From a virus: a DNA stretch of 64,000 bases. Below the pieces are notes generated by a model. The model did no database searches. It worked only from the letters and a program-made list of their open reading frames with translations, and was not told where the DNA came from. Numbering within the stretch: the stretch's first letter is position 1; each line of letters begins with the position of its first letter. Below are positions 12,683-57,400 of the stretch, in pieces. The position numbers and the translations under genes were made by a program. The stretch covers positions 37,170 through 101,169 of the IMG/VR virus record IMGVR_UViG_3300048597_000118, one strand, 5' to 3'.

Positions 12683-12695
12683 AACTGATTACCAC

Positions 12696-13373: not shown

Positions 13374-13439
13374 TTGTTCCTAGCTTGGGGGAGTGGTACA
13401 AAAAGAAATTAGACAAGGCAACCAAAACGATTATCAACC

Positions 13440-30100: not shown

Positions 30101-33100
30101 GCTAAAACTTCAACCACAAGCAGCAGAAGAGGAAGTATCTAGACAGTTCCTAGATATAATCAGCCAGGACTTTTTAGGTGCCAAAGCAGGTGAAGTACTT
30201 AGTTATAGCTATGACAAGTCAAAGGCTAATACTAGCGCAGATGTGGACGCAGACATGACAGCTTTCGCCATGTTGAAGTTATTGACTGATTACACTGGTA
30301 GCCGCGCTATGACTGCATCAGAGATGATGGAGAAAGGGCATTACAGCGCTTCTCTTAAGGCTTCTAGGGATGAACTGTCTTCTAAACTAACTACTCATAG
30401 TCAGCAGGTTACAGAGTACTTAGAAAGTAAAAAAGGCACCGACAATACTCGCATAGAAGCCGCTAAACAAGAACTGAGAAACGTCGGCGTAAAACCTGAA
30501 ATGGTGGACCGTGTAGTAAAAGGCCAGAGCAATAGTTGGTACATAGACGATGACGCTTTTGTCCAAAATACCATAGCTAACCTCATAGGCAAGTTTCAGT
30601 CTCAGTTCTTAGGCGGCAACTCTGTGGCAGATGACTTTAAGTCTGTAGATCCACTCTCTACTGAGCGCACTCTCTACACCCACGGTTTAGAAGTAGAGGT
30701 TGACGAGTCTGGTGATAGTCCGACCTACAAAATAGTAAGGAGAGAAGACTCTGATAAAACTATCCGTCGGAATGCTGCATATCAAATGCAGGATAAAGTA
30801 GACGCTTATAATCGCAAGTTTAATCTGTCTGGTCAAGATGCTTTACAAGTAACCGACTTAGTAAAGACAGATGATAAAGGCAATTTTATAGACTGGGATT
30901 TAGAAACGGCATCTAGCAAGATTAAAGAAAGGGCTAAACAAGAAGCCCTCCGTAAACTAAATAAAACTTTAGGGCTTGAACACTCAGCAGAATTACAACT
31001 CTCTGCTGAAGAAGCTACTAGACTATCTTCTGGTGATATAGGCATGGCGCAAGCTGACTTACGCACTAGACTTGATGGGGTCAAAGGCGTGTCTAATCTA
31101 GATAGACTTGCCACTGAAACCGAGTCTAATGCTAAGTCTTACCTTGAAATTCTAGGTAATAAACAGTCTGAATCAAAAGCAGGTAAAGCGGCGCTCAAAC
31201 AGATAAATGAGGGTAGAGCTACTGAAGATGCATTTACTTCAGTAGACCAAGCGCGAGCCTGGTCTACTAAAGTCTTAGAAAATGAAAACAGATTACTAGC
31301 CGACTTAAATTCAATAAATGAGGCTAAGTCTGCCACTCAACAAGAGTTACAGACTATAGAGTCTCGCCGTAAAAGAGTTCAACGAGTAGATTCTACAGTT
31401 AATCAGTCCGCAGACGCATTTAAATCTTGGCAGACTACTTCAGATACCATTGATGCTCAAGTAGACTCTTTCGAGGCTACTATGCGGCAGAACATGGAGA
31501 ATAGAGTCTCTGAGTTGACCTCTAACCGTGATGCCATTGAGACGGAGGCCGAAGGTCGCAATATGAGCGTCGATGAAGTCGCTGCCACCACGTTTAGAAC
31601 TCTACAAGAGATAACTACCCGTAATCAGGCTGACGACCTTATGGATGTCTTAGTGAAGACTAAAAAGCTAAACCAAGCGGTCCAAGGAGTAGTTACTGAA
31701 GGTCAATCAGAACAGTTTGCCGCTGTTAAAGACTCTCTTATCTCAGCCAACAACTTAACTTCATTGACCTTATTAGAGTCTATGGAAATATTGGGAGGTG
31801 AGGTTACAGCCCACGCCCAAGGTATAGACTCAGCCAAGCTCAATCAGGCATCTTTAGCCCAAGCGATGTCTACCGGTCTAACTAATGTGTTAGAAGCTGT
31901 CAGGACTTATTCTGACAGTCTTAGTGATGGTAGTCAGTTTGATAACAAATTGGGCGGCGCTATCATGTCTTTCCTGTCTATGGGTGGCGTACTTCCTGAT
32001 GAAATAAGCCAGATAGTAAACCAGAATGTAGCTCAACAGGTAGGCACGACAAAAGACTATGTTGAGCAGATGCAAACAGAACAAGGTAGAACAGCCTTGG
32101 CTAATAAGCTAGCTAAGTACGGCGGTAGTGACCTAGATATCACTACTGCTGAAGGTCAAGTAGAAGCAGCTAACCGTATAGTTAGAGGACAAACAGATGA
32201 GCTTCAAACTGGCGTCCTTAAAAACTTGATGCGGGCCGGCGTTATAGATGCTATTGCTTCTGGTTCTGGCTTTACTGGACATATGTCTAAGTGGTCTGAC
32301 TTGATGCAAGACACTATTGAGTTAGGCAATATGGACCCAGCAAATTTATCAGAGTCACAGCAAAGTATTTTAGACACTGCTCGCCAGATGCCTACACCTG
32401 AATATCAATGGGGTCAGCGCCTAGAGGCCAGTCAAGAAATGGTAGATAGGTTTAACTCTGGCTTAGAAAAGCGCGGTGTAAAACAACGGATCAATGCCAA
32501 CCAACTCTCTCGGTTAGCAAACAGCGATAATACTATGACTGTTCTAGAAGAACTAGGTCTAAATAAAGATACTAAAGTGGCTACACAGTTAGGCGCTCAA
32601 CTAGAAGAGTTTAGGTCTGAGCAGCGGACAGAATCAGTCTTACAAACACCTGACACTGTACGTAATCCAGGAGTAGCGCCCTCGATGTCTACTCCTGCCG
32701 TCGAAGACTTATCTGGCGGTAATACCGGCTTGGGTTCTAGTAGACCCCAAGATATGCAAATGTTATCTATAGATAAAGAGCAGGAAATGGTACGACAAAC
32801 TCTTGCAGATGTACATCGTACAAGACATGTAAGAGAAAAAGAAGCGGAGCAAAGTAAAGCAGAGTCTGCTTTAAGACGTAACTACGGTTTCACTGAAGCG
32901 TTAAGTATCTTAGCTATACCCGCCTTGTTTGCAGCTATGCAAGGTGATATTCCGGTCACAGAACAAGTGGGCGGTTTAGTTCAGGATGTTGTGACCTCTA
33001 CTCTGACCTCAGGTACCTTTGAGCAGTCCGCTACGTCTTTAATGTTGGCTGATGGTAAGTCAGAAGAAGAGCGGGCGGCCAGACTGGCTCAAGTACGTAG

Positions 33101-41955: not shown

Positions 41956-41990
41956 AACCTCCCTTGCTTATGGCTTGGGAGGTTATTTCA
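41956..41990 (+). terminator. Terminator opening the cassette array
   Basis: AACCTCCC / GGGAGGTT (8 bp) with a 13-nt loop is followed by ATTTCATG. The post-stem TTATTTCATG is shared by four terminators in the array. Confidence 0.6.
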
Positions 41991-42001
41991 TGACCTTCCT
42001 A

Positions 42002-42016
42002 ACCGGTTCGACCGGT
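42002..42016 (+). promoter_or_regulatory. Class I leader hairpin, cassette A
   Basis: ACCGGT-TCG-ACCGGT: 6-bp stem, triloop. The ATG follows 8 nt later with no Shine-Dalgarno sequence. Confidence 0.7.
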
Positions 42017-42024
42017 GTTTAATT

Positions 42025-42177
42025 ATGAAAATCTTACTAAAAGGTTGCTTAGCTTTCATACTTCTCTCCGGCTTGACCGGAGGGGCTGAATCCGCCCTAG
42101 TGGCAGCGAAAAATGTGCCTCGTAGGAGGCACTGCCACTGCTGCCATGGCAGTGGCGGGGGTAATAAGCCCCCGTGA
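42025..42177 (+). CDS. 50-aa secreted/lipoprotein-like peptide
   Basis: The product begins MKILLKGCLAFILLSGLTGG, a typical signal peptide with a Cys at position 8, and continues with a basic, Cys/His-rich tail (RRRHCHCCHGSGGG). Four Cys/His residues in a row suggest metal binding outside the membrane. It follows the first class I hairpin directly and has no ribosome site. Two internal near-repeats of GGAGG/CCTCC and GGCAGTGGC form hairpins in its mRNA, so a structured RNA with fortuitous coding is the alternative. Confidence 0.4.
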   Translation: MKILLKGCLAFILLSGLTGGAESALVAAKNVPRRRHCHCCHGSGGGNKPP

Positions 42178-42190
42178 ATAACTAATCTTT

Positions 42191-42221
42191 AACCCCCTAT
42201 ATGCCCCCATATAGGGGGGTT
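42191..42221 (+). terminator. Terminator, cassette A
   Basis: AACCCCCTATATG / CATATAGGGGGGTT stem of about 12 bp, then ATTTCATG. Confidence 0.7.
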
Positions 42222-42241
42222 ATTTCATGATCAACTTTACC

Positions 42242-42256
42242 GCTAGGACCACTAGC
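42242..42256 (+). promoter_or_regulatory. Class I leader hairpin, cassette B (5-nt loop variant)
   Basis: GCTAG-GACCA-CTAGC: 5-bp stem, 5-nt loop, followed at once by AGGAG and the ATG at 42268. Confidence 0.5.
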
Positions 42257-42267
42257 AGGAGATCATT

Positions 42268-42690
42268 ATGTCCGTAGTTAAGCAAGCTGTAAGTATCCTG
42301 CTCCTAGCAGGCTCCCGTGTGGGAGAGGGTGAGAGGGTGACAGCTAGGCTGTTTATCCACTACCTGGGTGGTAGTGGAGATGCAGTGACCCTGCATAACG
42401 ATGCTCTTACTGAGCACTGTACCTCTGCCCCCAGGACATGGGACAAAGGGTACAAGTGGGGTGTTATAGCGCCCGGAGCCTACGTTAATGCTGTAGGAGG
42501 TTATACATGTTATCCAGATGGTACTGGATATGACTTGTATGACTTCGAATCTTGGGAGTTAGACCCTAAGATATGCAGCAGGCTATATAAGGTTAATACC
42601 TTGTATAAGCTAAGAATGCTGCCCCCTAACCTGGGGCGGTGCATAACCAGCACTGGTGTAGGTAAGCCCTACACCATCCAAATCAAGTAA
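42268..42690 (+). CDS. Cassette B hypothetical protein
   Basis: This 140-residue protein has a hydrophobic N-terminal segment (VKQAVSILLLAGSRVGEGER) then a Gly/Tyr-rich body with several Cys (TCYPDG, KICSRLY, RCITS). AGGAG six nt before the ATG and the class I hairpin fix the start. It is alone between two terminators. No family is recognised; an early host-takeover role is inferred from the cassette layout only. Confidence 0.5.
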   Translation: MSVVKQAVSILLLAGSRVGEGERVTARLFIHYLGGSGDAVTLHNDALTEHCTSAPRTWDKGYKWGVIAPGAYVNAVGGYTCYPDGTGYDLYDFESWELDPKICSRLYKVNTLYKLRMLPPNLGRCITSTGVGKPYTIQIK

Positions 42691-42695
42691 AACGT

Positions 42696-42734
42696 AACCC
42701 CCTCTATATGCCCCCTTGGTGTATAGAGGGGGTT
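42696..42734 (+). terminator. Terminator, cassette B
   Basis: AACCCCCTCTATA / TATAGAGGGGGTT, 13-bp arms, 13-nt loop, then ATTTCATG. Confidence 0.7.
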
Positions 42735-42751
42735 ATTTCATGTAAACTATA

Positions 42752-42766
42752 GCCGGTACTACCGGC
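42752..42766 (+). promoter_or_regulatory. Class I leader hairpin, cassette C
   Basis: GCCGGT-ACT-ACCGGC: 6-bp stem with triloop ACT, followed at once by AGGAGG. A second site (CGGAGG, ~42786) precedes ATGATG at 42804, which opens a 22-codon frame (MMIRLGITRLWII...) overlapping the main gene. Confidence 0.6.
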
Positions 42767-42833
42767 AGGAGGCTATATAGCCAAACGGAGGAAACAGAAA
42801 TTCGATGATGATCCGTCTGGGTATTACCAGACT

Positions 42834-43346
42834 ATGGATTATACAGAAACTTTCTGTGTGCCTATGGCTATAGGCAGTCACGCATCCCCTTTTGGGGAGA
42901 TAGTAATCGGCAAAGATTACTGTCCTGGACACGACATACCTGAAAGGTATGATGTGTCTAGTTTTGTCGTGCTGCTTTCGGGGGTATGGTTCCAGACCCA
43001 GGAACATTCTGACTGGGTTTGGGACTTGTATTGCCGCAAATATTTCTACTCTGGTGAAGACCAAGTAGATTTTGTGGTAATGCAGGATGGGCAGGTTTTA
43101 ATTCTCGTTAATGGGAGTTATGACTATGCTCACTTGCCCCCTGCTAAAGGATTCTCTATTATCCGTAAACTAAAACGGATATTTAAAGAGTTCTTAGGCA
43201 GTAAGCCAACCCATCTACAGCTTTATGCTGTGCCTTATGGCAATGATGGGCTCGAAGACTACAGAGTTAAAGTATTTAGCTCTGTGGGCTTTAACTCCTC
43301 TTCTGAAGATAAACAGAAGATGGTCTTCGAGGGTACTGACTGCTAG
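42834..43346 (+). CDS. Cassette C hypothetical protein
   Basis: This 170-residue protein (MDYTETFCVPMAIGSHASPF) is beta-rich with aromatic clusters (LLSGVWFQTQEHSDWVWDLY) and a basic helix (IIRKLKRIFKEFLGSK). It lacks its own ribosome site; the 22-codon frame starting at 42804 covers its start, so translation may be coupled to that leader peptide. Lone gene between terminators. Function unknown. Confidence 0.5.
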   Translation: MDYTETFCVPMAIGSHASPFGEIVIGKDYCPGHDIPERYDVSSFVVLLSGVWFQTQEHSDWVWDLYCRKYFYSGEDQVDFVVMQDGQVLILVNGSYDYAHLPPAKGFSIIRKLKRIFKEFLGSKPTHLQLYAVPYGNDGLEDYRVKVFSSVGFNSSSEDKQKMVFEGTDC

Positions 43347-43403
43347 GAAAGACTAGCGGTGCGTCTTTATCCGCACGCGGAAGCATAGATAAAGCTCTGA
43401 AAT

Positions 43404-43435
43404 AACCCGCCCCACCGCTTCATGGTGGGTTATTT
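43404..43435 (+). terminator. Terminator, cassette C
   Basis: AACCC...ACC / GGTGGGTT with a bulge, then ATTTCATG. A further stem (GTGCG / CGCAC) lies just upstream at ~43360-43376. Confidence 0.55.
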
Positions 43436-43528
43436 CATGGGTGTAACAACCGGTATGTAAAGCTAGCAGGCGCGCATATCTCTTTAGTAATCCACGCTCC
43501 CTAACAAGGTCTAGTCAACCGAGGTAAA

Positions 43529-43543
43529 GGAGAAGTCTGCTCC
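43529..43543 (+). promoter_or_regulatory. Leader hairpin, cassette D (variant) with strong ribosome site
   Basis: GGAG-AAGTCTG-CTCC is followed by AAGGAGGTGAT, a nearly complete complement of the 16S 3' end, and the ATG at 43559. The usual triloop hairpin is missing; CAACCGGT at ~43447 may be its remnant. Confidence 0.45.
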
Positions 43544-43558
43544 AAGGAGGTGATTTAC

Positions 43559-44149
43559 ATGACCTTCAAGTGCTTTTTAAGGACCGCAAGGGACCTTGAT
43601 TCCAGCTTGTTCATTAGTGATGGGCTGAAACTCAAGTATACCTTGGGTCCTGATAAAGGACGCCCCGCTGAAGAAAAAGCTCTACTACTAGTAGAAACTT
43701 TCTTCGACGGTGTAGAACAGGCTTTTCTCGCAAGGAAAGGCTATGTACTTGACGTCAGCTTCAAAGTTGACCTAGTTGTCAAGTTCTATGAGCAAAAAGT
43801 GAAGGATGAAGAGGGTAAAACCATCAAAGTCCTAAACAAAAGAGCTCTAGGCTTACAAGTCAAGTCTTCTGCGTTCGGGGCGCTAAAGCACGAAGACCTG
43901 CGGTTCTCAAGAGATTGGGAATTCGGGTTTCCAGAATGCTTAACTTTGGCTATGGGTACCAATATGGTTTCCCAATTAGTCAGGTTATTGCGGAGGAAGC
44001 CGAATAAGCGGTTCTTCGATGCTTTGGAACTAGCCCGTAACTTGGGTGGAGAAACTTGGCCAGAAGGCATACCGGGTATGAAAGACCTGGTTGTGCTGGG
44101 ATTGGCTAAGCCTACCAAACAAGGCTACGTGGTGCGTCCCACCCGTTAA
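43559..44149 (+). CDS. Cassette D hypothetical protein, possible winged helix at C-terminus
   Basis: I start at ATG 43559, eight nt after AAGGAGG (196 residues); an upstream in-frame alternative start would lie on the ribosome site itself. The body holds a helix ALLLVETFFDGVEQAFLARK and strands YVLDVSFKVDLVVKFYEQKV. The last ~45 residues (KDLVVLGLAKPTKQGYVVRP) look like the helix plus beta-wing of a winged-helix DNA-binding domain. Function unknown. Confidence 0.5.
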   Translation: MTFKCFLRTARDLDSSLFISDGLKLKYTLGPDKGRPAEEKALLLVETFFDGVEQAFLARKGYVLDVSFKVDLVVKFYEQKVKDEEGKTIKVLNKRALGLQVKSSAFGALKHEDLRFSRDWEFGFPECLTLAMGTNMVSQLVRLLRRKPNKRFFDALELARNLGGETWPEGIPGMKDLVVLGLAKPTKQGYVVRPTR

Positions 44150-44176
44150 TGATATGACGAAATCATTAACAAATAA

Positions 44177-44241
44177 AAGCCCCCGTTTATGTAGATGAAT
44201 GAACGCTACAGACCCCCTCGCATAAGCTTGGGGGCTTTTTT
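44177..44241 (+). terminator. Terminator, cassette D
   Basis: AAGCCCCC and GGGGGCTT arms 45 nt apart close a long stem-loop followed by TTTTTT. Confidence 0.6.
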
Positions 44242-44256
44242 CTCCGTGAAATTACC

Positions 44257-44271
44257 GGCGGTACAACCGCC
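44257..44271 (+). promoter_or_regulatory. Class I leader hairpin, cassette E
   Basis: GGCGGT-ACA-ACCGCC: 6-bp stem, triloop ACA, followed by AGGAG and the ATG at 44282. Confidence 0.7.
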
Positions 44272-44281
44272 AGGAGACAAC

Positions 44282-44572
44282 ATGGAAGGTTGTGTTAAGT
44301 ATTTAGTCTCTGCTTCTAAAAGCGTAAACCTAGAACTAGAGGGTGAAATTCCCCTAGATTTAGGGTATCGCTGGGAAGTGGGCGTGACAGATTGGGAAGT
44401 TCTATCTGAGTTAACCGGAGAGCCGGTTAAAGTTCTCCAAAACATCTTGTCAGAGATGACTGGAGACGATCAAGAGGCCGCATACGCCTGGTTAGACGCC
44501 GGGCAGACCTTTGACTGGTTATTAGGGGGTGATGTCCCCTACTTCGTGGAAAAAGAGCTGTATAAGCTCTAA
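44282..44572 (+). CDS. Cassette E small acidic protein
   Basis: I start at ATG 44282 after AGGAG (96 residues); a longer in-frame start upstream would run through the terminator and hairpin. The protein (MEGCVKYLVSASKSVNLELE; later DWEVLSELTGEPVKVLQNIL) is strongly acidic, which is common among phage DNA mimics and host-takeover proteins. Function unknown. Confidence 0.5.
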   Translation: MEGCVKYLVSASKSVNLELEGEIPLDLGYRWEVGVTDWEVLSELTGEPVKVLQNILSEMTGDDQEAAYAWLDAGQTFDWLLGGDVPYFVEKELYKL

Positions 44573-44596
44573 TCCACCCCAATTAAGTAAAACAAA

Positions 44597-44626
44597 AAGC
44601 CCCCAAATTAATGGGGGCTTTTTTCT
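44597..44626 (+). terminator. Terminator, cassette E
   Basis: AAGCCCCC-AAATTAAT-GGGGGCTT followed by TTTT. Confidence 0.75.
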
Positions 44627-44637
44627 TGTTCTATCTG

Positions 44638-44652
44638 ACCGGTACGACCGGT
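44638..44652 (+). promoter_or_regulatory. Class I leader hairpin, cassette F
   Basis: ACCGGT-ACG-ACCGGT: 6-bp stem, triloop ACG. The ATG at 44660 follows 7 nt later; only GAAG resembles a ribosome site. Confidence 0.7.
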
Positions 44653-44659
44653 GAAGATT

Positions 44660-44830
44660 ATGCAAGTCATCAGCATTCGTATTTCTAAGCTATCTATCAC
44701 CTTGGGCGTAACACCTGAGGTAGTCACTCAGTGGTTATACGCGGAGTTTATTCGAGTAGAAGAACCTGCCCTTCGGGGTGGGGATAAAGAAGACGAATTT
44801 CCCACTAGTGGGAAATCTTCCCGCTGGTAA
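44660..44830 (+). CDS. Cassette F 56-aa protein
   Basis: The frame reads MQVISIRISKLSITLGVTPE then VVTQWLYAEFIRVEEPA and an acidic, Ser-rich tail. The core looks like a small helix-turn-helix (SITLGVTPEVVTQWLYAE resembles a Cro-type recognition segment). Its placement 7 nt after a class I hairpin supports real translation. Function unknown. Confidence 0.45.
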   Translation: MQVISIRISKLSITLGVTPEVVTQWLYAEFIRVEEPALRGGDKEDEFPTSGKSSRW

Positions 44831-44903
44831 TTAACTAAATAACCCTCAACAAGAGGAGGCAAGCTAATCAAACCTGGATTGAAAGCCAGTAAGGAATAGC
44901 GCG

Positions 44904-44924
44904 CCCCCGAGTTGGGGGTTTTTT
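44904..44924 (+). terminator. Terminator, cassette F
   Basis: CCCCC-GAGTT-GGGGG followed by TTTTTT. A GAGGAGG at ~44851 upstream has no start codon after it. Confidence 0.65.
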
Positions 44925-44943
44925 ACCGATTAGAATACCGCAG

Positions 44944-45759
44944 TTAAAAATTAAGTTTGGCTTTGTCTCCATACACGATTATGGCGTAGGAGTCATACAC
45001 TCTTGCAGCTTCTTCAGGAGTAGGATAAGTACCTATAGGGCGTGAGACTCCATTGACGCTAATCTGTGCTCTCCAACCTGATTTATGCTTAACGACGCCT
45101 CTATAAGTAGTATTGACAGGCTCGTCATCTACACTAAGCAGATTAGTACGTATAAAATTGTTTATCTGCTGAGTAGATAACCGTGCGCTGTCTAATCGTT
45201 GAAATAATCGTAGTGCTTTATCTACTTCTGTTTCAGCATATAAAAGGTTATCTACTGAGGGTATTGGGACAGACCGTACCTCTGAGACAGCTAAACACTC
45301 TGGAGCTTGTTTAATCTTACTAAATACAGAGCGGACTCCTATAGAACTAAATAAGGCATCAAGCCTCTTGGCACGCTCACTTGTCTCTCTTGCATCGTAG
45401 GCGTAGTACTTAACTAAAGAAGAAACTACTACCTCAGGCAGCATATAATTCTGATGGGTTCGTGTAGTGGCGGCCGTCGTAAGTTGTGGTTGGTTCTTAT
45501 AATCAAAGCCAGCTATAGGTTTTAACGAATCAGGTAAATCTTCAGGCCGCCAGTCAGGTAACCGCCGCAGCAAACCTTTTGCTAGCCCGTTTGCTTGTTT
45601 GCGCCCATCTATAAGAGATGAATGGTGCATATTAAGTAGACGGCTGGCTCCGCGTATAGAGCAGAAATAGTTGTTATCTCTTACTTCTAGCTCTGCATTA
45701 AGAAGCTGTCCTAATTCCGCATAGGACACTTCTGGTGGACATGGTGTTATTTGTGCCAT
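44944..45759 (-). CDS. AP2-domain DNA-binding protein with SIRG domain
   Basis: This 271-residue protein joins two DNA-binding parts. Residues ~28-130 contain the SIRG domain shared with the 132-aa protein at 38482 (YFCSIRGASRLLNMHHSSLI; LPEVVVSSLVKYYA). Residues ~213-271 are a bacterial/phage AP2 domain: YRGVVKHKSGWRAQISVNG, then PIGTYPTPEEAARVYDSYA and the closing YGDKAKLNF, which matches the family in order and spacing. Phage AP2 proteins are often linked to homing nucleases, but no nuclease core is visible here, so I call a transcription regulator. It is the only minus-strand gene inside the cassette array. Confidence 0.75.
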   Translation of the reverse strand: MAQITPCPPEVSYAELGQLLNAELEVRDNNYFCSIRGASRLLNMHHSSLIDGRKQANGLAKGLLRRLPDWRPEDLPDSLKPIAGFDYKNQPQLTTAATTRTHQNYMLPEVVVSSLVKYYAYDARETSERAKRLDALFSSIGVRSVFSKIKQAPECLAVSEVRSVPIPSVDNLLYAETEVDKALRLFQRLDSARLSTQQINNFIRTNLLSVDDEPVNTTYRGVVKHKSGWRAQISVNGVSRPIGTYPTPEEAARVYDSYAIIVYGDKAKLNF

Positions 45760-45786
45760 GATAGACCTTAGATATACAACAAGCTA

Positions 45787-45800
45787 ATTATAACGTTATA
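45787..45800 (-). promoter_or_regulatory. -10 box and perfect palindrome upstream of AP2 gene
   Basis: On the minus strand TATAATTAGCTT provides a -10 box (45787-45792). It overlaps the perfect 12-nt palindrome TATAACGTTATA (45789-45800), a likely operator, possibly bound by the AP2 protein itself. Confidence 0.5.
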
Positions 45801-45814
45801 AGCAGCACCAGCGG

Positions 45815-45848
45815 GCACTCCTATGTATACAAGGAGTGTTCTTTTTAT
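45815..45848 (+). terminator. Terminator opening cassette G
   Basis: CACTCCT-ATGTATACA-AGGAGTG (7 bp) followed by TTCTTTTT on the plus strand. Confidence 0.6.
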
Positions 45849-45973
45849 GGCTATTTGAGCCCTATTTTTATGACCAAGACAACCGCTAGGTACTGAGTGC
45901 AAGACGGCTGGTAAGTATATGGTGCGACTCCATACGCCTTTATCAAATGGACTGTCAAGGTTATAAACATCGT

Positions 45974-45988
45974 CCCAGTACGACTGGG
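45974..45988 (+). promoter_or_regulatory. Class I leader hairpin, cassette G
   Basis: CCCAGT-ACG-ACTGGG: 6-bp stem, triloop ACG, ATG 9 nt later (45998), no ribosome site. The stem differs from the CCGG type at paired positions, so pairing is kept by covariation. Upstream 45880-45973 forms further stems (ATGG / CCAT). Confidence 0.7.
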
Positions 45989-45997
45989 CAAAACAGA

Positions 45998-46519
45998 ATG
46001 TCTTTCTTAAACGCGATTAAAGAAGCTCTTTCCACCAAAACCGTAAAAGTAGAGGAAAAGGAGACTGCTAAAACCCGGACCCAAAAGTTCGTAGGTGAGT
46101 TCAAGGAGGTGGCTCAAACCCATCCCGCTGAACTACTTGATGCAGCCCAAAAACTGCATGGTATTGAAGTTATTAAAGACAAAGCCACAGAGAAGGCTGC
46201 CCAAATTGCTGAAGCTCGCAAAGCTAAAGAACGTTTGGTGTTTGCGGTAGACTCTGTCATAGAACAAATCGGTGTGGTAGCCGAAGAAATTCTGTGTCTT
46301 GAGGACGCCATTCTGGCTGATCAAGAGGCTATTAAGGTAGCCGAAGACGCATCGAAAGATGTGTTAGACGCTATGTCCAAAATGGACCCTGCTACTGTGT
46401 TAGCTGCTGCCCGTGCAGAACGAGCTAAAAAAGCTAACAAAAAGCAAGAGCCTGTAGTAAAACAAACTACTACCACTAAAGGCAATGGGCAACCAGCGCC
46501 TAAAGTGAACGTCGTCTAA
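45998..46519 (+). CDS. Cassette G coiled-coil protein (paralogue of cassette I)
   Basis: I start at ATG 45998 (173 residues), because MSFLNAIKEALSTKTVKVEE aligns with the start of the cassette I protein. The two share RTQKFVGEF, AAQKLHGIEVIKDKA, KAKERLVFAVDSV, QIGVVAEEIL, LEDAILADQEA and AARAERAKKA. Both are long, highly charged helices without Cys, typical of coiled coils. This copy has a Thr/Lys/Gln-rich tail. A nucleoid-like, shell or inhibitor role cannot be distinguished. Confidence 0.6.
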   Translation: MSFLNAIKEALSTKTVKVEEKETAKTRTQKFVGEFKEVAQTHPAELLDAAQKLHGIEVIKDKATEKAAQIAEARKAKERLVFAVDSVIEQIGVVAEEILCLEDAILADQEAIKVAEDASKDVLDAMSKMDPATVLAAARAERAKKANKKQEPVVKQTTTTKGNGQPAPKVNVV

Positions 46520-46526
46520 ATAAACA

Positions 46527-46560
46527 AGGGGAGTTTCCACCAGGATTCTCCCCTGTTTTA
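46527..46560 (+). terminator. Terminator, cassette G
   Basis: AGGGGAG / CTCCCCT with a 14-nt loop followed by GTTTTATT. Confidence 0.7.
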
Positions 46561-46573
46561 TTGACGTTTACAG

Positions 46574-46586
46574 CCGGTACAACCGG
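46574..46586 (+). promoter_or_regulatory. Class I leader hairpin, cassette H
   Basis: CCGGT-ACA-ACCGG: 5-bp stem, triloop ACA, followed at once by GGAGG and the GTG at 46597. Confidence 0.7.
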
Positions 46587-46596
46587 GGAGGTCAAG

Positions 46597-46893
46597 GTGA
46601 GTTTCTCCAACCACCAACAGCGGTTTATCCGCAAAGCTCGGGCTACTGTCAAGTATGCCCAGTCCTTGGGGTGCCCCTCAGCCCCTATTGGACATGTCGA
46701 CTTCAGTAATGGGTCGGCGGGCTATGCAGTATGTAATCAGGTGATTCATTCCCTAACATACTGTCAAAACTACTTGACACGGGAGTTGACCCGTAACCCA
46801 ACCCTGGAGCAAGCTCAGGAGGTGCGTAAGTGCCTGAATGCTATAGCAACAACTATCAGACTCGGGACTAAATCAGTTTTGAGTCGAGATTAA
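46597..46893 (+). CDS. Cassette H small helical protein
   Basis: The start is GTG 46597, eight nt after GGGGAGG; the in-frame TTG at 46561 lies in the terminator tail. The product has 98 residues (SFSNHQQRFIRKARATVKYA, then NYLTRELTRNPTLEQAQEVR), basic and helical with three Cys. Function unknown. Confidence 0.5.
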   Translation: MSFSNHQQRFIRKARATVKYAQSLGCPSAPIGHVDFSNGSAGYAVCNQVIHSLTYCQNYLTRELTRNPTLEQAQEVRKCLNAIATTIRLGTKSVLSRD

Positions 46894-46898
46894 GAATT

Positions 46899-46927
46899 CC
46901 CGGGAATATTACTTCCCGGGTTTTTTT
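46899..46927 (+). terminator. Terminator, cassette H
   Basis: CCCGGGAA-TATTAC-TTCCCGGG (8 bp) followed by TTTTTTT. Confidence 0.8.
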
Positions 46928-46941
46928 CTTGATCTATTTCA

Positions 46942-46954
46942 CCGGTACGACCGG
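46942..46954 (+). promoter_or_regulatory. Class I leader hairpin, cassette I
   Basis: CCGGT-ACG-ACCGG: 5-bp stem, triloop ACG; ATG 8 nt later (46963), no ribosome site. Confidence 0.7.
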
Positions 46955-46962
46955 CTAGAATC

Positions 46963-47424
46963 ATGTCTTTTCTAAATGCTATCAAGTCTGTTTTAACAAC
47001 CGAAGCCCCCAAGGCTGAGGTTCAAGACAATGCATTGACTCGTACCCAAACTTTCGTGAAAGAGTTTTCGGACGTGGCTGACCACCACAAACCCGAACTT
47101 TCTGTAGCGGCGCAAAAGTTACACGGTATTGAAGTAATAAAAGACCGTGCATCTGCTAAAGCAAAACAAATCTCTGAGGACCGTAAGGCCAAAGAGCGTC
47201 TCGTGTTTGCTTTAGATAGTGTTGTAAAACAAATTGGTGTGGTTGCCGAAGAAGTTTTAACCCTAGAGGATGCTATTTTGGCAGACCAAGAGGCTGCCGC
47301 TATTGCTAAGGACGCGTCGAAAGACGTATTAGATACGTTAGCTAAACTTGATGCAGCCACCGTGCTTAAAGCTGCTCGCGCAGAACGGGCTAAAAAGGCG
47401 GCTGAAGCCAAAAAAGTCGTATAG
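46963..47424 (+). CDS. Cassette I coiled-coil protein (paralogue of cassette G)
   Basis: This 153-residue protein (MSFLNAIKSVLTTEAPKAEV) aligns along its whole length with the cassette G product, keeping the segments AAQKLHGIEVIKDRA, KAKERLVFALDSV, QIGVVAEEVL and LEDAILADQEAAA, but lacks the Thr/Gln-rich C-terminal tail. The gene also begins 8 nt after an ACG-triloop hairpin. Two kept copies under the same leader suggest high dosage or specialised partners. Function unknown. Confidence 0.6.
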   Translation: MSFLNAIKSVLTTEAPKAEVQDNALTRTQTFVKEFSDVADHHKPELSVAAQKLHGIEVIKDRASAKAKQISEDRKAKERLVFALDSVVKQIGVVAEEVLTLEDAILADQEAAAIAKDASKDVLDTLAKLDAATVLKAARAERAKKAAEAKKVV

Positions 47425-47437
47425 ACTTTAATTAAAT

Positions 47438-47462
47438 AGAGGGGTGTAAGCCCCCTCTTTTT
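47438..47462 (+). terminator. Terminator, cassette I
   Basis: AGAGGGG-TGTAAG-CCCCCTCT followed by TTTTATG. Confidence 0.75.
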
Positions 47463-47472
47463 ATGTGGGTGA

Positions 47473-47640
47473 CAACCGCTACTTCCTATCTCTGAGACCC
47501 TATGGGCAGACTCGTGTATCGAGCCAGGGTTGGAAGTAGCGCATTACCCACACGACAGTATTCAATACTGTCAGCCCGCCACAGCCGGAGTCAGACAACC
47601 GCACCTCGATACCCTTACCCCTACCTGGGCATATTTTTAA
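47473..47640 (+). ncRNA. Candidate small structured RNA
   Basis: No start-coded gene occupies this cassette. Instead CGCTACTTCC (47477-47486) pairs perfectly with GGAAGTAGCG (47532-47541); inside it ACCCT (47497) pairs with AGGGT (47526), and CTCG (47511) with CGAG (47520). A second perfect hairpin GACAGTATT-C-AATACTGTC lies at 47554-47572. A CATATTTTTAAC tail ends the unit. Nested perfect pairing where neighbours have a gene suggests a non-coding RNA; an extended leader of the next gene is the alternative. Confidence 0.45.
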
Positions 47641-47650
47641 CACCCTAACA

Positions 47651-47665
47651 GCCGATAAGCTCGGC
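47651..47665 (+). promoter_or_regulatory. Class I leader hairpin, cassette K (5-nt loop variant)
   Basis: GCCGA-TAAGC-TCGGC: 5-bp stem, followed at once by AGGAG; ATG at 47679. Confidence 0.5.
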
Positions 47666-47678
47666 AGGAGTTAAATTT

Positions 47679-48020: not shown

Positions 48021-48228
48021 TTACTGTCATCTATTTTGCATAGTTACATAAAAGCAGAGGGCTGCATTCCTGACCCGGCAAGGGTTCTAAGGTTTTGATT
48101 AAGTGCTCACTCGAACAGCATTAAAGAAGCAAACTACATAGAAGGCTCTAATTTGAGCCCTATTTTATTGACTGTCTTTACCGGTAGTCATCACTATATC
48201 CGGCGTCTACAAGGCGTCGTGTTTTCGT
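48021..48228 (+). other. Leader region of the giant early operon
   Basis: There is no gene here. It contains a short stem with a T-tail (GGCTC-TAATTT-GAGCC then CTATTTTATTGAC, ~48143-48173), the post-terminator TTATTGAC signature seen elsewhere in the array, and an 8-bp bulged class I-like hairpin (CCGGTAGT...ACTA-TAT-CCGG, 48181-48203) before the small membrane gene. Confidence 0.4.
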
Positions 48229-48459
48229 ATGGACATTTTCGTTGTCTTGACTTTGTGGGTCTACGGACTTTTTGTCGTATTCTGCCTGAACGCTGTGGTA
48301 TCTGCCACAGCCCGGGCAATTTATTCCGTTTATGGGGTGACAGCCCAAGACATTCTCGTATGGGGGATTCAGAACCCCCTGTGGTTTTACAACCTGCTTG
48401 ATCAGGTAGCCCCCCAAGCTACCCAACAACACAATTACTTCGGAGGGTTGAATGACTAA
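48229..48459 (+). CDS. Small membrane protein coupled to the giant helicase gene
   Basis: This 76-residue protein (MDIFVVLTLWVYGLFVVFCL, NAVVSATARAIYSVYG...) has one clear N-terminal membrane helix, a likely second amphipathic segment (GIQNPLWFYNLLDQV) and a soluble Gln-rich tail. Its last eight nt overlap the start of the 3452-codon gene, with GGAGG between, so translation of the two is coupled. It might anchor or signal for the giant product; no family is recognised. Confidence 0.5.
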   Translation: MDIFVVLTLWVYGLFVVFCLNAVVSATARAIYSVYGVTAQDILVWGIQNPLWFYNLLDQVAPQATQQHNYFGGLND

Positions 48460-51400
48460 TCCCAACACGGCGCCTAGCGGCGGCGCCTTACAAATAGTCG
48501 CTGGTAGTCCAGCTGGGAGGACTCAAATTAGTCCCAGTGGGTTCCAGGCAGGGTCCCATCAAAACCCTGGTCAAATCGTGTCCGTTGAGGGTGGAGCGCC
48601 TATGGCTCAGCTCTCGACGGGCAAAAGTTCACAGCCGGTCCTTACAAACAAAAACGAGGTAATTATGAAAGTTAATCGACGCTTTGAATTAGGTATGTCT
48701 CTAAATAAAGAATGCCTTGATTATGTTGTCCATTTAAATCAAAAAGGCAATCCAAACTCGGAAAGCCAAAAACTGATCGATAAAGCCCGCGCTTTTCGTC
48801 GGGCAGCTCCCGTCCGGGCTGGTTTAAGTATCACATTCAGTAACACTCCTGTTGCTGGCGTTGTCATTAACCAGGAAGGCCGTGATGCTTCCGTTGCTTA
48901 TTGTGCTGCCCGCACCATTTACAAAGCTACCCGTCGGGTGGCTAATCGTGAGGCTTTCACTTTGATTAATATCCTGGGCTTGGTAACCCGCCGTCACGGC
49001 AAAGTTACTCGTAACTCTACCAAAGGATTTGGTACTGTTACTATCGTATCTTCCGGCACCTCTGCCGGTAAAACCGTGAACAACCGTAAAATCAACCAAC
49101 AGATTGCCCGTGCCCAGCGGGTATCTCGTCAGCGCCGTAATGGTCGGCGCTCCCAAGTTAGTAAAACAAGTCAGCAACGTGGTGCTGACCGTGCAGCCCG
49201 TGCTGCCAAACAGGGGGCAAAATTAGCCCGTCGTCGGGCTGCCCAGGCCTTCCTGGATGCTCAACGCAAGGCGGCAGTTATGGCTCTTGGGGTAACTCCC
49301 AAAGGGCATAAAGCCCCAGCTATGGTCCGTGGTGTACGGGTGAGCACCACCCCAATACCCACCACCCGGTCGGCTAAGTCCAGTGCCCTCCGTGGGGCAC
49401 ATGACGGTGTATATTACGTTAACGGCACTGAGGTGCCGGTGGTTAAAACAGTAGTTGCCCACCGTCAGGCAATTCTGCGTAAAGAGCGTAATGCTCTACC
49501 CTTAGCGGTACGTAACCGCCGTCTAGCGGCGGAAAACGGAACCCGGTTCCACCGGGATGCTGAGTTCGGCGCACGGCGCGCCTTGAGTCGGCACATTGTA
49601 GAAGTCCCTGTTATGCCTGTATGGCGTATGGTGCCCACTGCCCCAGCACCTGAGGTAACAGTGGCAGACTTTGAAGCCAAGGCTAAAGCCATTATGGCTG
49701 AGGCTAAAGTCAAATACGGCGCTGGTGACCTCCAGATGTCGTTAAATAGTAATTCTAGCGACCGCGATATAAAAAGCGGACTAGAAGCTCTACCGGTAGG
49801 AGACTCCATGGATAATATCGTAAAACTCGTCAGTGACCTTATGCCCACGGCTCAACCCGTAGCATCTATCCACGCTGACCACGCCTCTAATGACCGCTCC
49901 CTCGGCTATTACGTCAGCCTCTGCTGCGTATACGTCGACGGTTCCGGTCGTCAGACTATCAAAGGCAATATCAATTTGCCTATCCAAGCTCACTTCAGCA
50001 AGAAGCAATGGCCTGTCATCGGTGAACCTATGACCTCCGAAGACGCTAGCCTTAATGAGTCTTCTCTGCTTAAAGTGAGCGCCGAGCAACCTGTGCTCAA
50101 GTTCCGCACCAGTGCGGCCTACAACACAGGGAATTACACTCCTTGTGGTATGTGGCTATCTAAAGCCTGGGAGCGACCATATCCATTGAGGAAGAAATAC
50201 CCTGAAATCTCCCCCGAGATTTCGGTTATGCTGGATGGCAAAATGACGGTAGCTAACCTAGCCAAACCTGCTGAAGGCAAAGACAATATCACCCTTCAAC
50301 GGGCTATCGTCGACGCCCGTCTAGAGGTATGGAACGCCATCATGGGCGCCACCACTGAGGTCAAAGCCGGTGGCTGTACCGTTAAAGGCGGACTCGGTGC
50401 CAAATTACAACCCGGTCGTAACTGGGTGGTAGTTGTTGCTGATGTCACTGCGATCAACGGTGCCTCTAAAGAGAAAGGCGGCTTTGACATGTTGTTCAAC
50501 GTTACCCGTCCTGATGGTGTGGTATCCGTTGAGGGCTCCCTAGCCAAAGAAGACCTATACGGTCATGGTCGGGACTTTGCCTATGAGCGCATGGCAGCCC
50601 AGTCCATTGAGGTGCTCTATGTGCCTAACCTCAGTGATATTTATGCTGAGAAAGTGTTGGGTCCTTGGCACCCCAGCATCTCTGAAGGCTTAGCCCGTGG
50701 TTTCTACGGTGATTTACCTGAGTTAGCTGTAGACACCAAGAGCGGTAAGTTCAAGTATGCCGCTGCGTCTAAGGGCATAGCAGACCCCAAACGGGTTCGG
50801 CTATGTGACTTACTTGACTGGTCCTATGAGGCTTACGTCATGATTCAGTGCTGTCGGGAGAATCTACTGAATCAACGTGGACTACCCAGTGGTTCACGGG
50901 TAGTTACCAAACCAGCCGCACCGGTGGTCAAAGCAAAAGCAGCGCCCACTGTAACTACTGAGCCCACCAAACCTGTAGATGTAGCCCCTGTTATTGCTAG
51001 CCTCTTGGAAGCAGTGACCGCCGCACCTGCCCCTGCCCCGGCTCAACAAGTAGCCATAGTAGAACCAGAAGTAGAGGTTAAAGAACCTACTTCGCCACCC
51101 AAAGTAGAGGTGGTAGCAACGAAACTCCCTGAGCGCCCTGTAGTGCCTACCGTAGAACCTAACCTACAAGGTTACGCCGGTGCGCTCAGCCAATACCTTA
51201 ACCACATGGAAGGTATGTGGGTTAACCGCGAGTTAGCAAATATCACTGATATCAGTGTGTATTGCCAGGAACACGTCCAAGCGTGGGCTAACCTTGACAA
51301 GACTACAGGATTCAACGCTGAAGGTGTACAAGCCCGCACCAATGGTGTATCTGGTGCTTTTGGCGTTATTCGTTATCTAGCTGATGTCACCAAGACTGAA

Positions 51401-54400
51401 GGTGATTGTAAGCCTAACCTCAGTTTCTATGGCTTTGATTGGCAGCCCGAACACGTTATGAACGTGATTGCCATTCTCCGTAGCTATGAGTCTACCAATC
51501 ACCAGGATGATTTGTGCTACTTCAAACCTGAAGCTGGTGGGTATATCTTCAGTTTCCTTGGTAAAGAATTCGCCTGGATTCCTGAACTCAACGGTGTCAT
51601 CGACCTACCCCGTGGTCGGATGTTCAAGAACGTCGTTATGGCGTGCTACTCAGAAGAGCTCACAGAGAATGACCAACTAGTCAAAATCTACCGTGGGGCT
51701 CAAGCTATGTCCTCTATGGGTAGCTTCATGCGTTACCTATACATGGTGGTATTGCCTGTGATGGCTCATCTACCCGCTTCGGACGACTGGTCTGCCGTGG
51801 GTGCGAACCTTAACCAGTATCTCAATAAAGATGCGGGAGTCATGTTCCCCATGTCCTCTGACAATATCCTGTCAGAGAATGCTAACTTCCGTTGGGCTGA
51901 GTCCAATAGCTGGGCTCCCATGGGTCTAGACGTAGGCTCTACAATGCCTACTCCTGTAGTCAACGTAGATAAGAAATTCGCCTTAATTAACTGCTGGGGT
52001 ATCTACGCTGACAAACTCATCAAGGCATACGCAACTAACTATAAGCAGGCGAAGTTAACCAACGCTGAGTTTGCCGAGAACTTGTTGCCCGAAGCTATGA
52101 GTCAATTGGGTATTACCTGGTCGTTCAACAAGAACGTTGGGTATTCTATGCCTAACTTTGCTATTAACTGTCTTGTATTAGCTGAGCATGCCCCCGCTAT
52201 TTACGAACTAGTTAAAGCCCAGTTCGTCATAGATATGGGCGGTAGTAAAGCGGTAGATGAGTTCCTAGCCGCCTCCAAGTTCGAATCGTTAGATTTGTTC
52301 TTGCGCGGATGCGTAGTGAATAGTAACGGTAAAGTTGCTAAAGGAACTAAGCGTCAGCTATTGCGGGCACCTAACTCAGTGCAGTCTGGTAGCTATATCA
52401 ACTGTGATCGCAAACCTAAATTGGCTAAGATGCTAGCGGCTGGTCGTGGTGTCAAACCAGTTGATACCTTGTGGGCTGGTATGTTACCGGAGAACTTCTA
52501 CGCTGTAGGTGCCGGACACAAATTCAGCACTCAACCTGAGCCTATCACTGGCACAGCTATCCGTGTAGCTCTTGGTCTAACGGCTGTTGGTCCTGCTGGT
52601 GTAGTTGCTTGGATTGGTGGGCCTAATCAAATGCCCCATGGCTTTGGTTCTAATATTGAGCAGTCTAACTTTGAGATTCCCCAACGGGCTATCGAAGTTC
52701 AGCCTGGTGTTGGCTTTGGCGCCGATGATATCCAGCTAGTCCGCCCTGAACTGGCTGTAGACTTCCGTCAGCCTGAATGCGTGTTGGCTGATGTTGAATT
52801 GGTGACTGAAGTTCATCGGGTGCGGGGTATTGAATATTACTACTTCAAACCTCAAACTGCTGTGTATGTACATGGCAATGGTGGGTCTGTGGTGTGTAAT
52901 GTATTCACCAATGATGAACTTGCTCCTAGCAAACCGTTTGCCTATGAGAGTAATAACGGCGACGGCATCTTGGAATGGGTACGTGTCCACGTAGCACCAG
53001 AGATTACCGGTAAGAACCTAGAGGTGGAATTCAAAGTCACCACTATGGAACGGCAGGCTAAGATTCGTAGCTCTGTGGCTAAGGCTAACCTAATGCCCGT
53101 TAAGTCTTCGTTCTTGAAGTTGAACGGTGTGGCTGGGAAACTGGTTGACGCTGTATATCTGCAAGACGCCATGAAAATTGACGTTGATGGGTGTCTTATC
53201 AGTGTTATTGGTGTCACGTTGGTGCTTAACCCTGACTGTAATGACCCTGAGTTCTTAGCCATGGTTGAATTGGCTAAGGATATCAACGAGATGGTTGAAG
53301 GGCGCCGCCACTTGGATTACTTGGTAGAAGACCACGTGTCTATGGTTGCTCAACCTAAGTACACCGAACTGCAAACTCGGTTCTACAACTACTTCAAGCG
53401 TGAAAACGTTTGGACAATGTGGGAAGAACTAGAGCATGGTGACTTTGGCTATGCCATTGACCGCCTATACACCGATATGTCCAATGAAGGGTTGGACTCT
53501 TGGCGTGCTGTTACTGATGCCTTAGAAGCACGTGAGTTGGTAATGAACCTAGCGGCCGATGTAACTGATGAGTATACCTACAAATGCTTCACCAATGATA
53601 AAGACAATGTCTTTGTCTTGTTCATTAATGAAGCCGGGCGTGTAGCTAAAGTAGCTCAACGGTCCACTATGCTGGTTGGTCGCAATAATTGCCCCATCTA
53701 TGATGTGGTGCTCTATGAAGCGGCTACTACTCGCCAGGGTATCAACAATAATACCTCGGGTCAGATGGATGTCTGCATGCGTTCCTTGCGTGCTATGACT
53801 GATGCTTGGGGTATTGGTAATGATGGGTTGGCTAAAGACCTTATCCGTCGCCAAGGTATTTCTGGTAAGACTAACGCTATGTGGCGTGCCAAAATGCTAC
53901 ACCTTAGCGCCCATTGTGGTCTCAGCAAAGCCATTGATGGTCGTCAAGTCATCAAACTAGGCGAATGGAAAGAGGCAGATAAAGGGCAAGCCACCTGGGT
54001 ACCTAACTCTGAAGTAGTGGCTACCATCAAGTCCATCTTGGGCAATGCTGATGTGTCTAACGTGTCTAACTTTGGTGGGCTATGTGAAGCCCTTAAAGGT
54101 TATATCTTCACTGTTGATGCGTCTCGTAAAGAGTATAAAGTAGACGAGGAGAGCGGTGAAGTCTATGCCGTGTCTAAGTCTATTGAGGTATGGACTCCGT
54201 TCTTGTATTACCTCAACGGACGTAGTGCTGAAGATAATAGCCATAGCACCGCCAGTGGTCTATTCCAGGCTTACTTGGCCAAAGCATTATCCATTAACCC
54301 TGACGCCCGTAGTCTTGGCATCATTGCCAATCAACTATGTGGTCGTATGGACTCCTGGGCATCTTCTGAAGGTGTCCGTAAGTTTATCTCTGGTGGTGAG

Positions 54401-57400
54401 GTATTCGGCGGTAAGGTTATCGCTATGCCTAATCTACCTACTGGGGTGATGTTACTCTATGAGGGTGATGACCAATGGGCTAATGCCCGCCGCGTGGCTA
54501 AACATTATGGCTTAGACCTACGCAATGTACCCACTTGGGCTGACTATAAAGCCTTTGGTGAGGCGGTATGGGATATGCCTGAGCGTACCGAGGCGTTTAA
54601 CCATCTCACTCGTAGTCCTATTAAAGACGGTCCGGTTCAACGAGTACTTCGCATGCCCAAGTCCGTTGAAGCCTACAAGGATACGTTCTATTGCTTCAGC
54701 AATCCTTGGGTATATAACCCATTGAGTAGCAAGAACGTCTTGGCTAATCCATATCCCTATACCATTGGCGTATCTGTTATCGCCATGACTGGTGTTACTA
54801 AGGGTGACTCTGACGGTGATGGTGTGAGTGCTACGTTCTTAGTTAGCAATGTACCCGGCCTTCGTGGTTTGGTTACTGCTGAAGATAAAGCGTGGGAAAG
54901 TTGTGATAAATGTGCCGGGTTACCCGGGGCACAAGCTCGCCTGGAAGTATATCTAGGTGACCACTTGAGTGCCCCTAGTTTGGCTAAGAAAGCTAATATC
55001 TTCTTCCGTAAAGGTATGTTAGCTGTGTCCTTCAAAGACGGTGGTGTTAGTGGTAAGCATTTAGTATTAGCCGAGACCTATAACACAACCAACGTTCGCT
55101 CTTTGATTCTGCAAACTATGCAGGTCGGGGTGAGCTATAAAGTTTACCGTTTGACCGAGGCTATCACGGATATTCTCAATGGTCTTGTCAAAGGTGGTGT
55201 GTTTAAAGCAGCTGGTTTAGAAGTACCTGAGATGTTCAAGCCCTTCGTCGGTCCTCAATCCTACTATGCAGTAACTGCCTGTGCAGATATCTATGAGTAT
55301 GTATTGGGTGCTGTTGATGCGTTGGGTTGGCAACTCTGGGGTATGCTTAAATCCGTAATGGAAGCCAAGTTTGCTCCTATGTGGCACGCTCCGTTAATCC
55401 ACATAGACAAGACAGACGGCAATACAGTGGACCATAATGCTGAGGCTGAAGCCAAAGCAGTTCTGTTTCGTCAGAGTAAAGTAGCTGAGCTGACTGGAAT
55501 CCTCGGTAAGGCTGGTGTAAATACCAGTCAAGCCGACGCCATGGCTACTGCTTTCTGGTTGGCATCTTATGCTAACGGAACTGTTAAGCAACAGTCTATG
55601 TTCATGTTTGACGTTCAACGTAGTGACCGTCGGCTTGCACAGTTCATTATTGCTGCCGCCATGTTGGTCACCGAAGCAGGTCGTGCTAAATGGCATGGCT
55701 TCAATCATGGTCCTCTCAATAGCACTGCTTTGGCTAGTGACGAGAAGGTAGCTAACCATAAGAAGATGACTACAGTGACCTTAGACTACCTGACTAAAGG
55801 TGTAGCCGCCCATGATGTATGGGTTAACGCTGTATCTGAAAGCCATTGTTTGCAGTTGCTTATGGATATGGCTGACCCTGAGACTTTAGGTGACTTGGTA
55901 GTTGGTCCCCCGGCTAACACTGCTATTGATTACTTTGTCAATGCAGACTTGGTTGCCCATTATGAGTCTCAGTTGGCTGCTCGTGTTGGTGATGTCAACA
56001 TGGTCGAGATTAAAGAAACCGTGGTTGATGTGGAAGTATGTCTTGATATCTTTGTCACTGACGAAGACGAGGAGTTCGACTTAGTTGACCCTGATGCAGA
56101 TATATATGACGATTATCAACCGACTTATGACGAGGAGGAATATATGGAAATGCTCGCTAACCAGGCGATGTTGGCTCAAATGTTGGCTGCCCCCACTGCC
56201 GTAATTGAACCCACGGATAATACTCCAACTCCTCACTGTGTTGATGAGGATATGTATATCCCCGAGGAACAGACTGAAGAAGACCGGTTGGCTACTCAAC
56301 AAGTTATGGCTCAGCTGATGACTAAACCTCAGGCTGCCCCTGCTCCTGTAGTAATGCCTGCTCCTACTGAAGACCAAATCTTCTTAGCCAAACAGGCTGC
56401 TGTAGAAGCTGAGATTAGTGACCTAGAAACCCGTTTGGTTAAAGCCCAAGAGCTATTAGCTAAACAAGAAGCTCAGGCAAAAGCCCTGCGGAAGCTAGAA
56501 GACAAAAAGGCTAAATTATCGGCTAAACTAGCTGACGTTGTTGCTAAACTCAGCCCTGAGTACCTCGCCATGTTAGAAGATAATACCCAACCAGAAGAAG
56601 ACGAGGATAATGGCGGTGGCAATGTTAAGCCTGAGCCTGATGCCCCCAAACCTCCTTCTGATGACCATGGTCAGAATCTAAGCATCGATGCAGAAGTTCA
56701 GAAGGTACGCCATGATTTAGAACAGTTGGCTGCCCGTGCTCGGGATGGTGAGGTGATTGGTCGTCCTAGCCCTGAGCCTGCGCCTTCTGATGAGGATATG
56801 TATATCCCTGAAGAAGGTAATCCTGCGGAGAATATGGCGGCCTTTGCCGCCGCCGCTGCCACTTCCGTTACTGCCACTACTAACGAAGTAGTAACGGAGC
56901 CCACCTGGGCTGACTTTGTCCAAAGCATCAAATGGGAGCGTGGTGACGTATGTGAAGTCGAATACGAAGACGGCACCATCGGTTGGATGTTAGGCCAAGA
57001 GGTTATCCCTAACATAGTCAGCTCTGATTATGTAGATGGTCGCTTGTGGTTCTACCATGAGAAGCCCAACGTTCTCTTTATTGAAGATGGCTTGACCATC
57101 AATGACGTACCCGACGTTCAAGGATGGGAACTAGACCTATGTGATGACATTCGGTACGTTACTGGGTATGTAGGAGGAACTATTACTACCACCCCAGAAG
57201 CTAAAAAGGAAACTAGTGAAGTAAAATCACCGGATGACATCGTGGCTACACTAATAGAAAGTTACGCAAAAAAGTCTCAGCCCAAAAACCTTATTGAGGC
57301 TAAGACTAAAGCTCGCTCCCTTCCATGTCCACCTATAGACGATGAAGGTGCCACCGACTGCCAGAAACGCTTCTTCGAAGCCGCCTGCACCGGTGATAAC

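Follow-up and report, generated by a model that had tools for sequence, protein, structure and literature searches.

Composite terminator-hairpin units probably divide a small-gene array of a large cyanophage-related phage into one-gene cassettes

The window analyzed here, a 64,000-nucleotide (nt) part (positions 37,170 to 101,169) of the linear, 101,169-base phage record IMGVR_UViG_3300048597_000118 from IMG/VR (G000 in our genome numbering), carries an array of small genes separated by a repeated composite unit, in which a terminator stem is followed by a short motif and by a hairpin that fronts the leader of the next gene. We favor the view, with a probability of roughly 0.55, that the array is a set of one-gene cassettes split by these units, with a phage promoter residing in the unit and the hairpin acting in the leader RNA. 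The unit, its fixed register, a covarying pairing specific to each leader, and the concentration of these features in the array are direct observations.

Each unit has the same order: the GC-rich terminator stem and T-run of the prior gene, a segment of 12-13 nt with the consensus ATGACCnAnACA, an (A/G)CCGNT arm whose downstream partner closes a stem, and then a Shine-Dalgarno sequence and start codon. Alignment of the sites yields a 22-nt motif, T(C/T)ATGACCnAnA(C/T)A(A/G)CCGNTAC, located directly after the T-run of the preceding terminator, and the base preceding CCG is strictly a purine (14 G, 11 A). Almost all of the 32 units from three genomes have 12-13 nt between T-run and arm; a T-triplet located further on disturbed the automated count for several rows. 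When the 101-kb record is scanned with a weight matrix for the motif, 11 strong sites fall on the coding strand of the array and one falls elsewhere, within a gene; unit E was added by hand as a twelfth, weaker site. A preliminary description of this DNA had proposed that each gene has its own intrinsic terminator, and the excess of such structures (32 found, 7.4 expected) agrees with this proposal.

The same description listed seven hairpins with 3-nt loops at gene starts, and their positions, stems and loops are all as reported. Specifically, hairpins of the pattern GT-NCN-AC whose stems have 5 or more base pairs (bp) number seven within positions 41901-47700, whereas 2000 dinucleotide shuffles of this stretch average 0.066 and never exceed 2. 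The predicted enrichment of the pattern extends to the full record, where 10 occurrences in 101 kb compare with a shuffle mean of 1.6. Covariation of the stems, also proposed previously, is found as well. With sites from the close relative G001 (205,544 bases) added, compensatory changes are present at five of the six stem pairs, yielding a score reached in 0 of 500 shuffles. The aligned set (n=15) consists of the window hairpins, homologous G001 sites and two G001 leader hairpins, and it mixes paralogues and orthologues such that the sequences are not 15 independent events. Nevertheless, 91% of the alignment cells are paired, and sliding the partner by one column abolishes the signal. Several of the orthologous stems also differ at paired positions, as with ACCGGT/ACCGGT versus CCGCT/AGCGG, and CCCAGT/ACTGGG versus CCCAAGT/ACTTGGG. 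The covarying repeated element is real.

The triloop itself is a less general feature than was first thought. Because only six of the 12 window units carry one, it is not a constant element of the cassettes; the remaining units have longer loops (5 to ~45 nt) or no clear stem, and most units of the relatives lack a 3-nt loop. Similarly, the central C of the loop is found in all seven window hairpins (G on the template strand), but G001 has TAAAT and AAA loops. The hairpin at 45974 does lie just before the start of open reading frame (ORF) G, although this is ~90 nt downstream of the start of its own unit, within a long leader. This second hairpin of cassette G, which is near the start codon and covaries between orthologues, suggests that a stem in this position is useful in itself.

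Pairing is specific to each leader. When the downstream sequence of another unit is substituted for its own, the arm of a unit pairs less well (own versus swapped, z -4.9; 0 of 20000 permutations), and the distance to the partner varies, with ten bases pairing across 45 nt in unit K and partners up to tens of nt away in the more distant relative G003. In several units the 3′ arm adjoins the Shine-Dalgarno sequence. Leaders as a class are also structured: folding energies for 38 leaders from five genomes are below those of shuffled sequences (mean z -1.71), with z < -1 for 32 of the 38. A search of Rfam 15 yielded no family above threshold, and the sub-threshold matches were largely to a terminator.

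The architecture persists in relatives even where its sequence does not. In G001 the homologous array holds 13 motif sites, with a few isolated matches elsewhere, and G003 has at least seven sites ahead of its own giant ORF. Two further distant relatives, G004 and G012, exhibit the same architecture built from sequence that is for the most part different. GTGGG comes immediately after the T-run in G004, followed by 11-12 nt, CCCAC, often GGAG, and ATG, and there are altered yet paired variants such as GTAGGT-CTAGT-ACCTAC. The stems of G012 include GAGG/CCTC with CCGG/CCGG, GCCGGT/ACCGGC, and others. In the genomes compared, the array is placed between a giant ORF with a DYDGD motif and a giant ORF with a helicase domain, all on the same strand. 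The gene content of the arrays differs between G000 and G001. We also considered whether units are better conserved than genes between these two genomes; only some of the units are (58-81% for units, 54-70% for genes), and we make no use of this as an argument.

Several stems share the symmetric core CCGGT/ACCGG, as might be expected if the repeats were palindromic sites in double-stranded DNA for a phage regulator and the hairpin never formed. Yet the half-sites change together to unrelated sequences and their spacing ranges from 3 to ~45 nt, neither of which would be tolerated by a reader of a fixed palindrome, and we judge this explanation to be extremely unlikely. The position of the hairpin and its free loop length favor RNA over DNA.

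A DNA hairpin serving as a promoter was one of two readings offered in the preliminary description. The promoter of phage N4 is a short template-strand hairpin with a 3-nt loop, centered at -11 (PMC4496689). If the array used promoters of this kind, triloops would be extruded in the template strand, and a virion RNA polymerase would start ~12 nt past the loop center to produce near-leaderless mRNAs. Part of the units do resemble N4 promoters, in that seven stems of 5-6 bp (5-7 bp in N4) carry 3-nt loops with a central G on the template strand, just ahead of small genes (PMC4496689), and the record encodes a candidate giant polymerase. However, neither the length nor the center of the loop is conserved: half of the window units and most of those in relatives are without a 3-nt loop, and the AAA or TAAAT loops of G001 place a T at the center of the template strand, so that a template-strand purine is not kept. 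Unlike in N4, there are extra conserved bases, and these lie 5′ of the hairpin. Moreover, a start ~12 nt past the loop center would strip AGGAG from units C, E and L. Nor does the candidate polymerase appear to belong to the T7-like class of N4; a search with PF00940 (T7-like polymerase) found no match in the record, although control genomes were equally silent. An N4-type promoter is unsupported in the form proposed, and we consider it improbable.

The second reading, an RNA hairpin in the 5′ leader, best fits the leader-specific pairing, the loops of 3 to ~45 nt, the 3′ arm abutting the Shine-Dalgarno sequence, and a layout that is kept as sequences are replaced. The variable loops and sequence turnover weigh against a DNA-hairpin promoter of the N4 type as an obligatory element and favor a structured 5′ leader. 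The hairpin is most likely situated at the 5′ end of the mRNA of each gene.

The closest known kind of element is the promoter early stem-loop (PeSL), a composite promoter-terminator cassette of T4-like phages (Arbiol 2010; Comeau 2014; cited in PMC4503421). Judged by the account of PeSLs in this citing paper, we regard the units of the array as a variant of them. Both are compact intergenic blocks, repeated between small, fast-changing genes, that hold a stem-loop terminator and a start signal; in the array, too, a stem-loop terminator and the start region of the following gene form one block. Relative to PeSLs as summarized in that source, the array units differ by having no detected host-like sigma-70 promoter (6 sites versus 10.5 expected), and by having a phage-specific motif whose register with the T-run is fixed and a covarying hairpin that fronts each leader.

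One could instead suppose that host sigma-70 promoters drive these PeSL-like units and that the hairpins are mere leader structure. The compact promoter and stem-loop units with host-like early promoters that the citing paper describes for T4-like phages offer a precedent, and some G001 units contain a CTATATAG-like sequence. Against this, the shared ATGACCnAnACA(A/G)CCG is neither a -10 nor a -35 box, the number of sigma-70-like sites is below the shuffle mean and none are in register with the units, and the interval from T-run to hairpin has scant room for a -35 box. This arrangement seems very unlikely to us. Given that sigma-70 sites are not in excess, we infer that a phage-specific promoter is present within each unit, and such a promoter remains likely because the record encodes a candidate giant RNA polymerase. 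The motif, which is in fixed register with the T-run and concentrated in the array, would most simply be this promoter.

Given the strong terminators and the compact gaps, each gene must gain its own 5′ end within ~45 nt. Each unit couples the intrinsic terminator of one gene to the start of the gene behind it, and we propose that the promoter within it drives the cassette, with transcription probably starting between the T-run and the hairpin. The new mRNA would open with a helix and would have its ribosome site exposed right behind. The RNA hairpin could both cap the 5′ end against decay and hold the adjacent ribosome-binding site open. The purine before CCG would suit a transcription start, but pairing upstream of it suggests that the RNA may begin nearer to the T-run.

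The cassettes are probably transcribed by a phage-encoded polymerase, for which a protein of 5173 amino acids (aa) is a candidate. Around residue 3493 its sequence reads LGDYDGD, which does not vary across ten aligned sequences, and an invariant R-x-G-x-P lies ~60 residues ahead of this. Phage P23-45 provides a precedent: its gp96 is a giant virion RNA polymerase fused to a tape measure protein, with a lone DxDGD motif, and its early genes have their own promoters (PMC10770324). Common to both phages are a giant of ~5000 aa in which DxDGD stands alone and a group of small genes preceded by a motif of their own (PMC10770324). In contrast to gp96, where DxDGD is at residue 779, the motif is at residue 3493 of the 5173-aa ORF, and there is no profile similarity between the two. 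Profile searches against PDB and direct comparison with P23-45 gp96 found nothing for this ORF, and the Pfam beta′ models gave no match. The ORF is a candidate two-barrel RNA polymerase that would synthesize RNA and may be present in the virion.

Several observations weigh against our proposal. The predicted structure of 1180 residues around DYDGD is mostly helical and unusable, with a predicted local distance difference test (pLDDT) value of 51.7 and a predicted template modeling (pTM) score of 0.26. With the fold unconfirmed and no similarity to gp96, the 5173-aa protein therefore stays a candidate. Unit D and some G003 units lack a clear close partner for the arm. Wobble pairs (12 G.T versus 9 A.C) do not decide between RNA and DNA. 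Finally, the segment right behind the T-run likewise prefers its own downstream region as a pairing partner (z -3.5, compared with z +1.1 for a control stretch), and the RNA may therefore have an earlier start or be released from a longer transcript by cutting.

Such processing is the main rival to our proposal. The array would be transcribed throughout into one polycistronic RNA, and cuts within the A/U-rich linker that separates the two stems would leave each mature RNA with a 3′ stem and U-tail and a 5′ hairpin. An A/T-rich linker between two stems is present in every unit, pairing extends back to just behind the T-run, and terminator-like stems occur before the first cassette in G000, G001, G004 and G012, though no notable gene ends there. 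However, the stems with their long T-runs resemble strong intrinsic terminators, the fixed 12-13-nt register and strict purine before CCG are more typical of a promoter, and no promoter that could give rise to a long transcript was detected. We therefore regard processing as unlikely, and a promoter in each unit as the better account. A fuller form of this account, in which a two-barrel polymerase of the virion reads the units with the T-run doubling as part of the promoter, and the 5′-terminal helix is obligatory, turns over freely in sequence and keeps its position across lineages, is possible but tentative.

Features of the array and its flanking giant genes (window coordinates)
Feature	Coordinates	Strand	Context
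Terminator-like stem AACCTCCC/GGGAGGTT before first cassette	41956..41984	+	Seen in sequence; also in G001; no notable + gene directly before
Unit A hairpin ACCGGT-TCG-ACCGGT	42002..42016	+	ORF A 42025-42177
Unit B arm ACCGCTA, stem GCTAG-gacca-CTAGC	42239..42256	+	ORF B 42268-42690
Unit C hairpin GCCGGT-ACT-ACCGGC, then AGGAGG	42752..42766	+	ORF C ends 43346; start probably ATA 42777 or ATG 42834
Unit D arm ACCGGTA, without clear close partner	43449..43455	+	ORF D 43550-44149
Unit E hairpin GGCGGT-ACA-ACCGCC	44257..44271	+	ORF E 44282-44572
Unit F hairpin ACCGGT-ACG-ACCGGT	44638..44652	+	ORF F 44660-44830
Unit G arm ACCGCTA, opens ~115-nt leader	45882..45888	+	ORF G 45998-46519
Leader hairpin CCCAGT-ACG-ACTGGG	45974..45988	+	Directly 5′ of ORF G; not a unit start
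Unit I hairpin CCGGT-ACA-ACCGG	46574..46586	+	ORF I 46597-46893
Unit J hairpin CCGGT-ACG-ACCGG	46942..46954	+	ORF J 46963-47424
Unit K arm ACCGCTA; CGCTACTTCC (47477-47486) pairs with GGAAGTAGCG (47532-47541)	47475..47541	+	No notable ORF before unit L
Unit L hairpin GCCGA-TAAGC-TCGGC	47651..47665	+	ORF L 47679-47981
Unit M arm ACCGGTA, CCGG partner at 48200	48180..48203	+	ORF M 48229-48459
5173-aa ORF, candidate two-barrel RNA polymerase	18195..33716	+	DYDGD at residue 3493 (nt 28671-28685); fold unconfirmed
3452-aa ORF, C-terminal Dda-like helicase domain	48452..58810	+	Directly behind array

Some leaders have features of their own. Cassette C has no ATG at the normal distance and instead has an in-frame ATA at 42777, behind AGGAGG (segment 42767-42779); an open frame, IAKRRKQKFDDD, runs from here to the first ATG at 42834. 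G001 has ATG in place of this ATA, which is possibly an AUA start codon. Long leaders contain stems that resemble a T-arm, namely TATGGTGCGACTCCATA (45882-45945), GGGGTGCGACTCCCC (G001) and AGGGTTCGAGTCCCT (G003, 120671), and the last of these leaders has a GCCGGTA/TACCGGC end stem. Despite the tRNA-like look of these stems, there was no match by ARAGORN (window) or Rfam.

Two stretches associated with the array have no notable ORF or are noncoding. Between units K and L (47475-47640), conservation with G001 is 79%, and the sequence includes the stem GACAGTAT-TCA-ATACTGTC and two further copies of ACA(A/G)CCG; this is perhaps a small noncoding RNA. Four ACAGCCG copies occur in a row in the vicinity of 117467-117389 in G003. 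Before the first cassette, the noncoding stretch 41600-41956 has a AAAATATgCGCGnCAGAAAATGG-like sequence in common with its equivalents in G001, G004 and G012. In the relatives this sequence adjoins short repeats. A terminator-like stem follows, and the stretch is perhaps an origin or a noncoding RNA.

The cassette proteins are small and mostly without database match. Those of the relatives include kinase-like, amidoligase-like and M78-peptidase-like proteins, mostly below Pfam cut-offs, a content that would suit early host-takeover genes. Within the array but on the opposite strand (44944-45759) is an ORF with weak AP2 and NUMOD-like matches that appears homing-endonuclease-like, and comparable genes seem to be located beside the arrays of G003 and G012. 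Upstream of the window, a third giant ORF (record positions 2-13978, minus strand; at least 4659 aa) is cut off by the beginning of the record.

A search of phage records gave no near match to the DNA. The major head protein is ~30% identical to those of LMM01-group Microcystis phages and a Microcoleus phage, and a tail sheath is also encoded, which together point to a large contractile-tailed phage related to cyanophages. Searches with one cassette gene and the helicase giant recovered G001 as the sole close relative, and a scan of IMG/VR with the unit motif returned one true genome (G003) and three chance-looking contigs.

If our proposal is correct, a group of large, cyanophage-related phages would express an array of small genes via a dedicated code in which terminator and promoter are contained in one block, and every message would carry a structured 5′ cap. 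The unit motif would provide a concrete promoter motif to set against the candidate giant virion RNA polymerase. Furthermore, a hairpin that looks like those of N4 need not be an N4 promoter.

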